From assembly GCA_027492735.1 (NCBI GenBank), contig JAPUEE010000004.1:62001-126000 (forward strand): a DNA stretch of 64,000 nucleotides, read 5' to 3'. This document shows, piece after piece, positions 58,320-63,423 of this stretch. The stretch is from Candidatus Saccharimonadota bacterium (GTDB lineage Bacteria; Patescibacteriota; Saccharimonadia; Saccharimonadales; Saccharimonadaceae). Under the pieces are notes generated by a model. The model made no database searches, was not told the origin of the DNA, and saw only the letters and a program-made list of their open reading frames with translations. The translations under genes were made by a program, and so were the position numbers. Positions within the stretch are counted from its first letter, which is position 1. Each line of letters begins with the position of its first letter.

Positions 58320-58409
58320 TGGGAACTGGTGAAACAGTAAGACAATAGCGTCCGAGATTGACAATAAACTAACCAGACATTGGGGATTGGCCAAGCGGTA
58401 AGGCAACGG
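58320..58409 (+). repeat. Two decayed tRNA-Gln 5' halves in tandem
   Basis: 58320-58350 (TGGGAACTGGTGAAACAGTA) aligns with the intact tRNA-Gln 5' half with scattered substitutions. 58381-58409 (TGGGGATTGGCCAAGCGG) is nearly identical to it. Neither has an anticodon arm or 3' half. The second copy is part of a 66-bp direct repeat shared with the intact gene. Confidence 0.75.
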
Positions 58410-58542
58410 CCTGTCCGAGACCGATAGGTCGAATAGGTTAATAAATAGGTCCCGTTCGGGTCCAGAACCTTTTACAAATAGCGTCCGAGACTGACAATAA
58501 ACTAACCAGACATTGGGGATTGGCCAAGTGGTAAGGCAACGG
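58344..58542 (+). repeat. 66-bp direct repeat spanning the tRNA-Gln 5' half
   Basis: 58344-58409 and 58477-58542 match at 64 of 66 positions. Each runs from AATAGCGTCCGAGA through AACCAGACAT into the tRNA-Gln 5' half. This is a tandem duplication of leader plus tRNA in which only the downstream copy kept its 3' half. Confidence 0.85.
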
Positions 58543-58587
58543 GTTCTGGTCCCGTGATCGGGGGTTCGAATCCCTCATCCCCAGCCA
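58514..58587 (+). tRNA. tRNA-Gln (CTG)
   Basis: Acceptor TGGGGAT/ATCCCCA, anticodon loop TTCTGGT (CTG, reads CAG), TTCGAAT T-loop, encoded CCA at 58585-58587. The only intact member of the tandem array and the left border of the restriction island. Confidence 0.93.
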
Positions 58588-58770: not shown

Positions 58771-58836
58771 ATAGAAAAGAGAAGATTATTTCGTTGAGTT
58801 TTATATTTTTGAGAATCAAAGAGAGACAAAAAGTGT

Positions 58837-58842
58837 TATAAT
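58837..58842 (+). promoter_or_regulatory. Extended -10 promoter of the island leader RNA
   Basis: TGTTATAAT; the predicted start, G58849, coincides with the first base of the closing stem. Confidence 0.7.
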
Positions 58843-58848
58843 AAGAGG

Positions 58849-58977
58849 GTCTTACTCTTAATTGTCAGCCTGACCCCCATTTTATATGTGGTCGTCGTAT
58901 ACAAACGACACCGCATAAACGAAACGACGACAGTCGGGTTGTGAATTGGGAGTAAGACACCTTGCGGTGTCGTTTTT
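58849..58977 (+). ncRNA. Structured leader RNA with terminator/antiterminator pairing
   Basis: About 129 nt. GTCTTACTC (849-857) pairs with GAGTAAGAC (950-958), AATT (860-863) with AATT (944-947), CAGCCTGAC (866-874) with GTCGGGTTG (933-941), and GTCGTCGT (891-898) with ACGACGAC (924-931). The 3' end is a terminator: GACACC (956-961), TTGC, GGTGTC (966-971), T-run. Its left arm shares GAC with the closing stem, and the apical loop CGACACCGC (906-914) is exactly complementary to GCGGTGTCG (964-972), which would break the terminator. It lies directly upstream of the endonuclease gene. Numbers are offsets from 58000. Confidence 0.65.
58956..58977 (+). terminator. Terminator at the end of the island leader RNA
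   Basis: GACACC-TTGC-GGTGTC followed by GTTTTT. It would stop transcription 30 nt before the endonuclease start unless disrupted. Confidence 0.8.
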
Positions 58978-58985
58978 AATTTCAG

Positions 58986-59005
58986 GCATCGCAAAAAGGC
59001 GATGC
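58986..59005 (+). promoter_or_regulatory. Hairpin abutting the endonuclease start codon
   Basis: GCATCGC (58986-58992) pairs with GCGATGC (58999-59005), one base before ATG 59007. No Shine-Dalgarno is present; the hairpin could limit translation. Confidence 0.6.
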
Positions 59006-59006
59006 T

Positions 59007-59807
59007 ATGAATATATGGACTAAAAAGAGTATTGAACTTGCAACCCAACGCAATTATCTTGATTTGCTTTATCGTGTTTATCCGATGTCCGTAAATCTCC
59101 GGCGAGAACTTCCTGGTTCAACACTAAATAGCATAAGAACAGCATTCGATAACAGGGATGGCAATACTCTACTAAAAATCTTACTAAAACAAGAAGTATT
59201 CCCAATTAAGGATTCTTATGTTGCCTATCTAAAAAGAGATAGTTCATCTATCGACAGAAACCCAAGCACAGCACAACGACTCGTAGGTATGTTATACGAA
59301 ATGGGCTTTGACGATATCGTTGATCGCACAACAGTTCCAAAAGAAACAAATCGCCAGATTGGACCATTATTCAAGAACTGGATTAAGGCTGGAAGTCTTG
59401 GCGTTCCAGTCTTTACTAACGCAACAGACTTTATAAATACGCCCGAAAATGCAGTTTTTGACGGCTCTGACGCCGCAATGGAAACTTTTGCTCGTAACCA
59501 ACTTGGCTATGCCCACCCAAAAGGCTTGGACTTTATTGCCAAATTCAACGGTAAGTATGTAATAGCAGAAGCAAAGTTTCTGTCAGATTTTGGCGGTCAT
59601 CAAAACGCCCAATTCAATGACGCAATATCAACAATGCAGTCAAATTCAGTGATAACAAATAAAGAAGTAATAAAAATTGCTATTTTGGACGGTGTTTTGT
59701 ACATCAAGGGTAACAACAAAATGCACAAAGCAATTACTACTGATTTTAGTGATAGTGAAGTGATTATATCGGCAGTTTTATTAAGAGATTATTTGTTCTC
59801 ATTGTAG
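59007..59807 (+). CDS. Type II restriction endonuclease-like protein, PD-(D/E)XK
   Basis: 266 residues. The core motif is PKGLDFIAKFNG then YVIAEAKFL (about residues 170-192), i.e. Asp, about ten residues, Glu-Ala-Lys, the PD-(D/E)XK nuclease pattern, with FGGHQNAQFNDA after it. N-terminal helices probably read DNA. With the methyltransferase that follows 6 nt after the stop it makes a classical restriction-modification pair. Gene order (nuclease before methylase) makes tight control important; leader RNA and start hairpin lie just upstream. AT-rich compared with the core genome. Recognition site unknown. Confidence 0.8.
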   Translation: MNIWTKKSIELATQRNYLDLLYRVYPMSVNLRRELPGSTLNSIRTAFDNRDGNTLLKILLKQEVFPIKDSYVAYLKRDSSSIDRNPSTAQRLVGMLYEMGFDDIVDRTTVPKETNRQIGPLFKNWIKAGSLGVPVFTNATDFINTPENAVFDGSDAAMETFARNQLGYAHPKGLDFIAKFNGKYVIAEAKFLSDFGGHQNAQFNDAISTMQSNSVITNKEVIKIAILDGVLYIKGNNKMHKAITTDFSDSEVIISAVLLRDYLFSL

Positions 59808-59813
59808 GTATTT

Positions 59814-60896
59814 ATGAATCTTGATTATGCAGGTAAAAAATCAGAAAAAGAGATATTAGCAAAGGCTAAATCTCTTAAAAAATCTGTTGATAATACTGAT
59901 AATTCGTTATTGCTTAAAGGTGATAATTTCACAGCCTTGTCATCATTATTGCCTAACCATACTGGCAAAATTGACTTGATTTATATTGACCCGCCTTTCA
60001 ACACAAATCAAACATTTACCGTTGAGGACGAACGAGTAAGTACAATTAGTCGTAAGAAAAACGCAATTGTTGCGTACTCCGATCAAATGACACCGTCCGA
60101 GTACATCGAGTTTATGCGTGAACGCCTAATACTCTTGCGAGAATTACTTTCAGATAATGGCTCTATATACCTACATATAGATACAAAAATGGGTCATTAT
60201 ATCAAAATTATAATGGATGAGATTTTTGGTATAGATAATTTTAAGAATGATATTACTAGAATTAAATCAAACCCTAAAAACTTTATGCGTAAAGCATACG
60301 GCAATCAGAAAGATGTAATATATTTCTACGCAAAAAATAAAGATAGAAACATTTTTAACAATGTAACGATCCAGCTTGATGAAAACGACAAAGCCAAGAT
60401 GTTTAAGAAGATTGATGAAAATGGACGCAGATATAATACAGTTCCAGTACACGCACCTGGCGAAACTAACGGTAAAACTGGCAGTGAGTGGCGTGGAATG
60501 CTTCCACCAAATGGCAGACATTGGCGAACAGACCCAAACGAATTAGATAAACTAGACAACCTCAGCTTGATAGAGTGGTCAAAGAACGGCGTACCTCGAA
60601 TTAAGAAGTTTGCAGACGAACATAAAGGTAAAAAGATACAAGACATTTGGAATTATATCGACCCAGCATATCCACTTTACCCAACCGAGAAAAACCTAAA
60701 AATGCTCGAAATGATAATCGAACAATCATCGAATGACGATTCTATTATTCTTGATTGTTTTGCTGGTAGCGGTTCAACGCTTTTGGCGGCACAAAATCTT
60801 GGTCGCAGATGGATTGGAATTGACCAGTCAGATGTATCACACAAAGTTATAAAGAAACGATTTAATAAAATTACCTACGAATATCTCGAATTGTGA
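59814..60896 (+). CDS. DNA adenine/cytosine-N4 methyltransferase (DPPF, beta class)
   Basis: 360 residues. Catalytic motif IV is YIDPPFNTNQTF near residue 61; a target-recognition region of about 200 residues follows, then the AdoMet motif LDCFAGSGSTLLAA near 305 and GRRWIGIDQS. The order DPPF-TRD-FxGxG is the beta class, which includes type III Mod and M.HinfI-like enzymes. It should protect DNA from the upstream nuclease. Which base it methylates (N6-A or N4-C) is not certain; DPPF favours N6-adenine. Confidence 0.88.
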   Translation: MNLDYAGKKSEKEILAKAKSLKKSVDNTDNSLLLKGDNFTALSSLLPNHTGKIDLIYIDPPFNTNQTFTVEDERVSTISRKKNAIVAYSDQMTPSEYIEFMRERLILLRELLSDNGSIYLHIDTKMGHYIKIIMDEIFGIDNFKNDITRIKSNPKNFMRKAYGNQKDVIYFYAKNKDRNIFNNVTIQLDENDKAKMFKKIDENGRRYNTVPVHAPGETNGKTGSEWRGMLPPNGRHWRTDPNELDKLDNLSLIEWSKNGVPRIKKFADEHKGKKIQDIWNYIDPAYPLYPTEKNLKMLEMIIEQSSNDDSIILDCFAGSGSTLLAAQNLGRRWIGIDQSDVSHKVIKKRFNKITYEYLEL

Positions 60897-61039: not shown

Positions 61040-61144
61040 ATGGGAAGCATATTTGTGCAGGATGTAAGAATCGAAAAGAGAGCGATCTTAACTATTAGCG
61101 TATTCCGCTATTATTTTGGGCCACTAAAGGATAAAAATGAATAA
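61040..61144 (+). CDS. Possible 34-residue leader ORF overlapping the ParB-like gene
   Basis: ATG 61040 lies 10 nt after TATAAT (61024-61029). The ORF reads MGSIFVQDVRIEKRAILTIS and ends at TAA 61142-61144, overlapping the next start (61137) by 8 nt. It could couple translation of the ParB-like gene, which has its own AAAGGA. Confidence 0.4.
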   Translation: MGSIFVQDVRIEKRAILTISVFRYYFGPLKDKNE

Positions 61145-62552
61145 GAGCAGAAAAATTACATATGTAAAAATTAATGAGCTATTACTCGATATTAATAACC
61201 CTAGATTTGCAGAACTATATACTGGCAGTAAAAAACAAGATGACTTGGTTGATTACTTGTTAAATAATGAGTCGGCAGACGAGATAGCGAAAGCGATTGA
61301 AGAATCTGGTGAGTTTTATGCGGACAGACCACTATGGGTGGTAAATGATGGAATAAAGTATCTGATCAGAGACGGCAATCGCCGTTGTGCTGCCGTGATA
61401 GCTCTGCAAGATCCGACTAAGTATAAAATAGCTACAAAAGAGATGCAGATTAACGAGTTGCCTGTGATAATTTATGATGACGAAAACGAAATCTCTACTA
61501 GAATCCGCCTTGAACATACGAATAGCCTATTCCGATCCTGGGACAGGATAGCGAAAGCCCTTGAAGTCTATAAAATGTATAATTCTGGAAGCTCTATAAA
61601 ATCTATGGCTGGAGAAATAGATTCTAAGCCAAGTGATCTATTGAAATTAGCTAACTTTTACTATGAGGCGGTAAAAATAAGCGGTGATGACCTAAAAAGG
61701 TTACTGCGTCGTGGGCGTGGCGGCACTGGAGGAAAAACAGTCATTTTCGAACGATTGTTTTCTAAGAGTAAAGAATGTGGCTACGAATTTCAAAAACACA
61801 CATATAATATAACAGTAACTGACAAAAAATTGTTTGAAGGATATATCAAGGCCATGGTATCTTACCTGCAACAATACCCTGGCACAACGTACATTGACGT
61901 CAACAAGGACACAGACAAGGAAAACTTTCTCAATCAGCTCGACAACAACTTTAAAAAGGCAAAGAACGTAGACTTGGGAGGCGCCGTGAAGGGTGTAGAG
62001 CCAAAAGACACAACTTTTCAACCACCGTTAATTGATAGCATAGCTAATCCGACAGTTACTATTACAGAAAAGCGAGGCAGCAGGAAGAAAAAACCTAATA
62101 TGACACGCAAGCAACTTCCAAATGCAGTAAGAGCCATAGTAGATGAGTGTTACAATTTAGATTCTCAAAACTTTACTAACGCAAAAATGGCGTTGACTCG
62201 TGTAATGTTTGAAAACTCACTAAAGTATGTTGTTGATAATACCGAATATAAACCAGGCAGTAAAATGTTGAAATCCAATTATTTTCAAAAAGCATTATAT
62301 AAATCTGGGAAGCAGTATACGGACTTCAGTGAGTTGAAGAGGTTATTCCAGTGTCTAATTACTAATACTAGTATTAAAAAAGCTATGATAAACTACAAAT
62401 CAGATGAGGCAGATCAGATTATACACAACTTCAACGTTGAGGCCTCTCCAAACCAGGCTGAGGCTACATGTAATAATCTGATCCCTATTGTCGAATTCTT
62501 ACTGCAAGATTCACAAGATTTAATTAGCGAAATTGACATAAGTAAGCTATAA
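61137..62552 (+). CDS. ParB-like nuclease domain protein
   Basis: 471 residues. The N-terminal 120 residues match the ParB/Srx fold of defence-associated proteins: LLLDINNPRFAELYTG, DRPLWVVNDGIKYLIRDGNRRCAAVIAL (given here in its two parts as PLWVVNDG and IRDGNRRCAA), the latter being the nucleotide-binding box. The remainder is helical and basic in the middle (a Lys/Arg stretch near 315), and may bind DNA. It is not a chromosome partitioning ParB (no parA, no parS). It directly precedes the D12 methylase, whose -10 overlaps its stop codon, so both belong to one module. Function uncertain. Confidence 0.7.
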   Translation: MNKSRKITYVKINELLLDINNPRFAELYTGSKKQDDLVDYLLNNESADEIAKAIEESGEFYADRPLWVVNDGIKYLIRDGNRRCAAVIALQDPTKYKIATKEMQINELPVIIYDDENEISTRIRLEHTNSLFRSWDRIAKALEVYKMYNSGSSIKSMAGEIDSKPSDLLKLANFYYEAVKISGDDLKRLLRRGRGGTGGKTVIFERLFSKSKECGYEFQKHTYNITVTDKKLFEGYIKAMVSYLQQYPGTTYIDVNKDTDKENFLNQLDNNFKKAKNVDLGGAVKGVEPKDTTFQPPLIDSIANPTVTITEKRGSRKKKPNMTRKQLPNAVRAIVDECYNLDSQNFTNAKMALTRVMFENSLKYVVDNTEYKPGSKMLKSNYFQKALYKSGKQYTDFSELKRLFQCLITNTSIKKAMINYKSDEADQIIHNFNVEASPNQAEATCNNLIPIVEFLLQDSQDLISEIDISKL

Positions 62553-62559: not shown

Positions 62560-63423
62560 ATGCTCACATCTTTTTATTCACCGTTAAGGTATCCTGGCGG
62601 GAAACAAAAACTAGCAAAGTTTATTGACCAAATTTGTGTTGATAATAATATTAACGGGCACTATGTCGAGCCGTATGCCGGAGGAGCGTCCGTGGCGCTA
62701 TATTTACTGCTTACTAATAGGGTTAAAGAAATAACTATTAATGATCTAGATAAAGCAATCTATGCCTTTTGGTGGTCAGTTAAATACCGGACATTTGAAC
62801 TGCGCAGGCTTATAGATAGTACTGATATCACTATAGATGAGTGGTATAAACAAAAGAGTATTCTATCTAACAAGAATAGTGAGAAGGACTTGTTAAAACT
62901 GGGGTTCGCAGCACTGTTTCTTAACAGGACTAACTATTCAGGGATTCTTAACGCTGGTGTTATTGGCGGGGCGCACCAAAAAGGGAAATATCGAATAGAT
63001 TGTCGTTTTAACAAACAAACTATAGTTGATAGAATTAAACTGATTGGGAGTATGAGTAATCATATCAACATATTTAACCTAGACGCTCTTGATCTTGTCG
63101 AGAATATTAAATGTAACGACAATACAATCTTCTATTTTGATCCGCCCTATTTTCTTAAGGGCGAGAGTTTGTATATGAATCACTATCAGTCAGATGATCA
63201 TAGGGCAGTTAGTGAGAAGATAAAGTCCATAAAAGATGCAAAGTGGATAGTGTCCTATGACAATGCCCCAGAGATACACGATTTATATGATGACACACAG
63301 CTCCCGACTAACTACGTCCTTCACCATAGTGCTCGGACTAGTCGCCTCGGGAACGAAAGCATATTTTTTAGCGATAATCTTATTGTCAAGAGCGAGGTTA
63401 TTATGAGTTTAAGTAATACTTAA
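62560..63423 (+). CDS. D12-class (Dam-like) N6-adenine DNA methyltransferase
   Basis: 287 residues. AdoMet motif PLRYPGGKQKLAKFI at residue 6, VEPYAGGASVALYL, and catalytic IFYFDPPYFLKGESLY near 192: the alpha (D12) class to which Dam and DpnM belong. An internal block FLNRTNYSGILNAGVIGG is typical. It may be an orphan methylase or the modification partner of the ParB-like protein. No second nuclease is adjacent. Confidence 0.9.
   Translation: MLTSFYSPLRYPGGKQKLAKFIDQICVDNNINGHYVEPYAGGASVALYLLLTNRVKEITINDLDKAIYAFWWSVKYRTFELRRLIDSTDITIDEWYKQKSILSNKNSEKDLLKLGFAALFLNRTNYSGILNAGVIGGAHQKGKYRIDCRFNKQTIVDRIKLIGSMSNHINIFNLDALDLVENIKCNDNTIFYFDPPYFLKGESLYMNHYQSDDHRAVSEKIKSIKDAKWIVSYDNAPEIHDLYDDTQLPTNYVLHHSARTSRLGNESIFFSDNLIVKSEVIMSLSNT

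Follow-up and report, generated by a model that had tools for sequence, protein, structure and literature searches.

The RNA leader in front of a restriction-modification (R-M) operon of Candidatus Saccharimonadota bacterium (contig JAPUEE010000004.1) is, judged from sequence comparison, one copy of an RNA leader family absent from Rfam and from the papers searched. In the ultrasmall Saccharibacteria, this family is in our view probably a cis-acting switch located in the 5′ leaders of mRNAs, and cis-acting control by alternative RNA structures, taken in general terms, is very likely. The leader lies in the window, i.e. the whole stretch of 64,000 nt that was analysed. Patescibacteria have a two-stage life, and a recent perspective describes its regulation as completely unknown (PMC11665869). 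A multi-copy leader preceding genes for secreted, membrane and type IV secretion pilin-like proteins as well as restriction genes would provide a concrete regulon with testable sequence elements. Furthermore, it would be unusual for an expression platform to consist of a chain of exclusive helices that runs from an apical loop across the terminator as far as the start codon. The R-M operon in the window would be under the control of a generic cellular RNA switch, not of its own regulator.

The annotated parts of the leader and of the operon are listed in Table 1. By direct reading of the window, the predicted transcription start G58849 is the first base of a long nested stem, as had been described in an earlier note made from the sequence of the window, and lies 6 nt 3′ of the extended -10 box TGTTATAAT. 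This box was not listed by a generic sigma-70 scan of the window, since it has no -35 region. Box and spacing are conserved in the family: a TATAAT box matching in at least 5 of 6 positions was found in 83 of 86 members, it lies exactly 6 nt 5′ of the first base of stem P1 in 71 of the 86 copies, and the TG extension is present in 61 of the 86. The fold of the leader stem has a z-score of -6.2 in comparison with shuffled sequences, and of -7.6 when the 3′ part is included. An independent scan recovered the terminator GACACC-UUGC-GGUGUC-GUUUUU at positions 58956-58977, and the GAC at 58956-58958 is common to its left arm and the leader stem, again as proposed earlier. The apical-loop 9-mer CGACACCGC, for which exact complementarity to the right arm of the terminator had been claimed, indeed shows it, and the match comprises 13 bp reaching into the terminator loop and the U-tract. 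Two details of the start region had to be corrected. The existence of the last hairpin is confirmed (z -5.5, -15.4 kcal/mol; pairs of 58981-58992 with 58999-59006 and 59008-59011), and it reaches the start codon instead of ending one base before it. The Shine-Dalgarno (SD) sequence, which had been thought to be missing, exists in the form of an SD-like AAAGG.

Table 1. Features of the leader and the R-M operon in the window
Feature	Position	Strand	Remarks
Extended -10 box TGTTATAAT	58834-58842	+	read from the sequence; predicted transcription start G58849
Whole leader element	58849-58976	+	match of covariance model R1, 102 bits
P1, 5′ strand	58849-58863	+	pairs with 58944-58958; 15-bp stem
P2, 5′ strand	58866-58874	+	pairs with 58933-58941; from the fold of the leader
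S1, 5′ strand AUGUGGU	58886-58892	+	pairs with apical 58910-58916 (pseudoknot); U58892 common to S1 and P3
P3, 5′ strand UCGUCGU	58892-58898	+	pairs with 58924-58930
Apical segment AAACGACACCGCA, helix C 5′ strand	58903-58915	+	complementary to 58963-58975
Terminator T, left arm GACACC	58956-58961	+	first three bases also in P1
Tail UGCGGUGUCGUUU	58963-58975	+	terminator loop, right arm and start of U-tract; helix C 3′ strand, helix D 5′ strand
Terminator U-tract	58973-58977	+	independent terminator scan
D-strand GGCAUCGCA	58985-58993	+	partners: tail 58963-58971 (helix D) or start region (helix R)
Start-site hairpin R	58981-59011	+	D-strand with GCGAUGCU and last two bases of AUG
SD-like AAAGG	58995-58999	+	7 nt 5′ of ATG; mostly in the loop of R
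Tsp45I-family type II restriction endonuclease	59007-59807	+	Pfam PF06300, E=6.8e-100, residues 2-266; PADLOC REase_II
N6/N4 DNA methyltransferase	59814-60896	+	6-7 nt past the endonuclease, same operon; PADLOC

A DNA search yielded matches in 17 of 101 related genomes, several of them with more than one copy; three loci (L016, L017 and L022) were left out as partial or chance matches. The alignment of 30 members revealed an invariant core, consisting of AAACGGCACCGCAUAARCA in the apical loop and GACACCUUGCGGUGUCGUUUU in the terminator, and stem sequences which vary. With a covariance model, the element was detected in 109 of 394 genomes of the window's family, representing 31 of 61 genera with up to 8 copies per genome. 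At the level of the order it occurs in 60 of 393 genomes, and at that of the phylum in 14 of 380, nearly all of which belong to the same order or class; outside the order the element is rare. The named records which harbor the element are Saccharibacteria, except for a few labelled otherwise. Neither the window element nor the elements of nine other loci gave an Rfam match (release 15) above the gathering threshold, and a literature search covering few subscription journals found no description of a Saccharibacteria leader, riboswitch or RNA motif of this kind. The genome of the window contains a second copy (G000:C19:4725-4862), and the two copies are dissimilar at the DNA level. Spread by a transposon or MITE was rejected, as the copies are alike in structure and not in sequence outside the core. 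The core pattern has no exact match among the viral contigs of IMG/VR, so that a phage origin is not indicated.

Several individual loci may be mentioned. Two metagenome-assembled genomes of about 2 Mb titled Oscillospiraceae (L048 and L051) carry one element each, either on misbinned contigs or by transfer from Saccharibacteria. Close tandem elements, separated by about 70 to 360 nt, are found at L115:260-374 and L115:447-572 and at L096:2844-2968 and L096:3323-3424. A match to LOOT RNA (RF03000) lies near the element of a related genome (L112:2635-2752). The copy at L036:5115-5238 is decayed, with mismatched P1 and an interrupted U-tract. It points towards an oppositely oriented type II endonuclease gene, whose 3′ end it faces and which has its methylase gene next to it.

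Structure counts were obtained from 89 aligned copies, in the case of P1 from 87 distinct sequences. P1 shows 99.2% pairing, and both sides have changed in 7 of 7 pairs; P3 is 82-89% paired with such changes in all 5 pairs counted. In helix C, which RNAalifold predicted unprompted, the apical segment pairs with the loop, the right arm and the U-tract of the terminator. When the alignment was fitted to the other helices only, helix C is 93.9% paired (slid controls: 40-57%), and 81 cells show changes on both sides compared to 22.5 in shuffled data. This covariation is not explained by the terminator hairpin, because the covarying pairs 107-232, 106-233, 116-213 and 117-212 fall outside the terminator stem. 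In comparison with swapped partners, none of 5000 permutations reached the value of the own partners. The terminator stem T is 94.1% paired with three both-side changes; T and C overlap at alignment columns 226-231 and are mutually exclusive, with about 94% pairing in both. A compensated change, with the apical consensus UUAAGCGGCAUCGCAUAAGUAAUC and the tail UGCGGUGUCGCUUU, occurs in a subgroup comprising L105, L107, L109, L113, L130, L136, L139, L142 and L144:1554-1697.

Apical segment and tail correspond to one sequence in inverted orientation. Repeated operator sites of one DNA-binding protein, or a recombination site, might thus have been selected as DNA and merely resemble RNA complementarity. 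However, the cells of helix C departing from Watson-Crick pairs are G-U in 84 cases and A-C in 3, which points to pairing at the RNA level. In addition, P1 and P3 vary freely and yet stay paired, the distance to the -10 box is constant and a gene follows, so that we regard this explanation as extremely improbable.

Further helices compete with C and T. S1 joins the apical segment to the strand immediately 5′ of P3, through AUGUGGU/ACCGCAU in the window copy, CACGG/CCGUG in L131 and L134, and CUAUGCG/CGCAUAG in L013. Alignment-free comparison of duplex energies between own and swapped partners gave 0 of 2000 permutations and, for divergent representatives, 0 of 5000. In fixed alignment columns, where this strand is badly aligned, S1 does not rise above shuffles, and it is not clear in the UUAAGCGGCAUCGCAUAAGUAAUC-type subgroup (e.g. 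L105 and L144:1554). The partner of the tail in D is the segment directly behind the U-tract, which reads GGCAUCGCA in the window and AGCACCGCAG in L118, L135 and L145. The energy of D is -10.1 kcal/mol for own, -9.0 for swapped and -6.1 for shuffled partners (0 of 5000 permutations). Helix R, in which the D-strand pairs with the ribosome-binding site or start codon, is confined to a subset. Examples are GGCAUCGC/GCGAUGC in the window, AGCACCGC/GCGGUGUU over the GUG start in L118, and GGCACUC/GGAGUGUC over the SD in L120. It gave 22 of 5000 permutations among 38 divergent members and is strong (z < -2) in 17 of 64 copies, the window copy included. Three control pairings gave 3409, 1421 and 2907 of 5000 in the same test, which was made among divergent representatives and removes relatedness only in part.

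Because the rival helices use common bases, S1 is incompatible with C, C with both T and D, and D with R. They form a chain of mutually exclusive pairs with the anatomy of a two-level RNA switch. A constitutive leader has been considered as well, the blunt 5′ stem stabilising the mRNA, the terminator only lowering the expression level and the alternative helices being signal-free folding intermediates. It agrees with the location of the 5′ end inside P1 in every copy and with the fact that no ligand-like unpaired consensus was isolated, since pairing in S1 and C explains most conserved loop bases. We nevertheless judge it unlikely, as a stabiliser needs neither a loop covarying with two exclusive partners nor a D-strand covarying with tail and start site alike.

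In 72 of 80 testable copies, the start of a same-strand ORF lies within 160 nt, compared to 32 of 80 on the other side of the element. The gap between leader and start codon ranges from 19 to 135 nt with a median of 44 nt, and an SD sequence is found in 61 of the 72 cases. Most gaps are too short to accommodate a second promoter. Taken together, the element has a fixed place 5′ of a same-strand gene, a covarying structure and an intrinsic terminator exclusive with another conserved helix, as expected of a cis-regulatory leader of the riboswitch or attenuator kind that adopts alternative structures. The products encoded downstream are diverse and include Fib_succ_major, DUF4352, T4SS_pilin, TM2, OmpA, surface lipoprotein and amidase, among others; for the most part they are membrane, envelope or secreted proteins. 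By a crude hydropathy rule and a crude choice of ORFs, a hydrophobic N-terminal segment was assigned to 43 of 71 leader genes, compared to 36 of 190 ORFs in the neighbourhood (odds ratio 6.6, p 3e-10).

These positions also bear on the idea that the element is an independent small RNA of about 128 nt, transcribed from a promoter and ended by a terminator of its own. Its apical loop would then tie and protect the 3′ end, and the nearby gene would be incidental. The RNA is indeed compact and bounded by promoter, start and terminator, and the pairing of its 3′ end in helix C, including part of the U-tract, fits a protected terminated RNA. The strong preference for the side facing a start codon speaks against it, as do the segments of D and R past the U-tract, which covary with tail and start site and would be absent from a terminated RNA. 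We therefore consider a stand-alone small RNA quite improbable.

For the cis-acting switch, we propose the following course of events. Transcription would start at the first base of P1, and P1, P2 and P3 would form a long scaffold which presents the conserved apical segment. This segment has two exclusive partners, since it can pair either with the upstream strand, giving S1 and a pseudoknot with P3, or with the terminator tail, giving C. The tail has three: the left arm of the terminator (intrinsic terminator T), the apical segment (C) and the segment past the U-tract (D). In the subset of copies to which the window belongs, the D-strand may alternatively cover the start codon (R). While the apical segment is held in S1, T would form and transcription would stop; once free, it would invade the tail through the terminator loop to form C and enable the polymerase to read through. 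In the read-through mRNA, the choice between D and R would then set the access to the start codon, where R exists. Candidates for stabilising S1 are a metabolite, an ion, a protein, a trans-acting RNA or temperature.

The direction, with S1 as the off and C as the on state, is our preferred reading at roughly even confidence. Opposite polarity could apply, and C could act after termination or promote it: part of the U-tract belongs to C, so the helix is complete only after the polymerase has passed the U-tract. The switch logic is also tentative because S1 combined with T (off) and S1 combined with D (start codon free) would have opposite effects. As long as P1 is intact, a linker of 4-5 nt separates it from the tail, which leaves little room for pairing with the apical loop, and some fraying or bending would be needed. 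It is conceivable, but rather doubtful, that the relay of S1, C, D and R represents a lineage-specific class of sensor RNA, coordinating termination and translation start for surface and secreted proteins and for recruited defence genes in response to one common signal (e.g. host attachment).

Riboswitches with a terminating expression platform include pseudoknot aptamers such as those for fluoride, SAM-II and ZTP. The leader family shares with them the 5′ location, a pseudoknot-like candidate aptamer, a terminator, exclusive helices and many copies in front of different genes. In contrast, its genes do not point to one metabolite, there is no Rfam match, the loop pairs with the 3′ arm and U-tract of the terminator instead of the 5′ arm, and a further switching segment follows the terminator. 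In the attenuation of the rep genes of pT181 and pIP501, a leader loop pairs with the 5′ arm of the terminator and an antisense RNA is encoded opposite. Here, too, a loop complementary to a terminator arm would decide between terminator and read-through, although the arm is the 3′ one. For an antisense partner of the loop, a DNA search of the own genome gave only a chance 14-mer in a coding-like stretch on another contig. In pyrG attenuation of B. subtilis, it is the extreme 5′ terminus of the RNA that pairs with the terminator. Similarly, the first transcribed bases of the leader (GAC of P1) can pair with the terminator left arm, but the 5′ end is a long covarying stem without a reiterative start sequence, and the three shared bases are exchanged at little cost.

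R-M genes follow the leader in the window (Tsp45I), L032, L034 and L126, and the closest relative of the window leader is that of L034, ahead of a DNA methylase gene. Both observations would suit an attenuator evolved for R-M systems, so that the nuclease would stay low until methylation has taken place or a phage arrives. As a specific function this is not supported and appears very improbable, since the genes behind most copies are unrelated to R-M and mostly code for envelope or secreted proteins. Moreover, in the window the endonuclease and then the methylase gene are co-transcribed behind the leader, and in L032 and L126 the methylase gene comes first and the endonuclease gene second. The claim of the earlier note that the nuclease is held low until the methylase acts could not be upheld, given that the same leader precedes dozens of unrelated genes and that both genes lie behind it. 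Its two layers of RNA control stand as anatomy (covarying stem, loop-terminator helix and, in a subset, start-site hairpin) and not as control specific to R-M. The covariation in homologous leaders, which it had proposed to check, turned out strong for the stem, for the loop-terminator helix and, in a subset, for the start-site hairpin, which is contrary to the outcome that would have refuted it, namely a lack of conservation of pairing.

As in R-M control by C proteins or antisense RNA, expression of both R and M would be regulated by the leader. Control by a C protein was rejected based on the ORF list: in agreement with the earlier note, no small helix-turn-helix C ORF is present beside the operon, neither between the tRNA gene and the endonuclease nor past the methylase. 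Unlike such systems, the operon shares its leader RNA with unrelated genes. Downstream of it, 61137-62552 and 62560-63423 match PD-Lambda-5 A and B, a candidate phage defence system, the B match being a Dam-like methylase; the R-M operon is thus part of a small defence island. On the other side, a tRNA-Gln(CTG) gene is located at 58514-58587, preceded at 58380-58500 by a partial, rearranged duplicate of the tRNA and its upstream sequence. Only the second of these two tRNA-Gln(CTG) copies is called as a tRNA.
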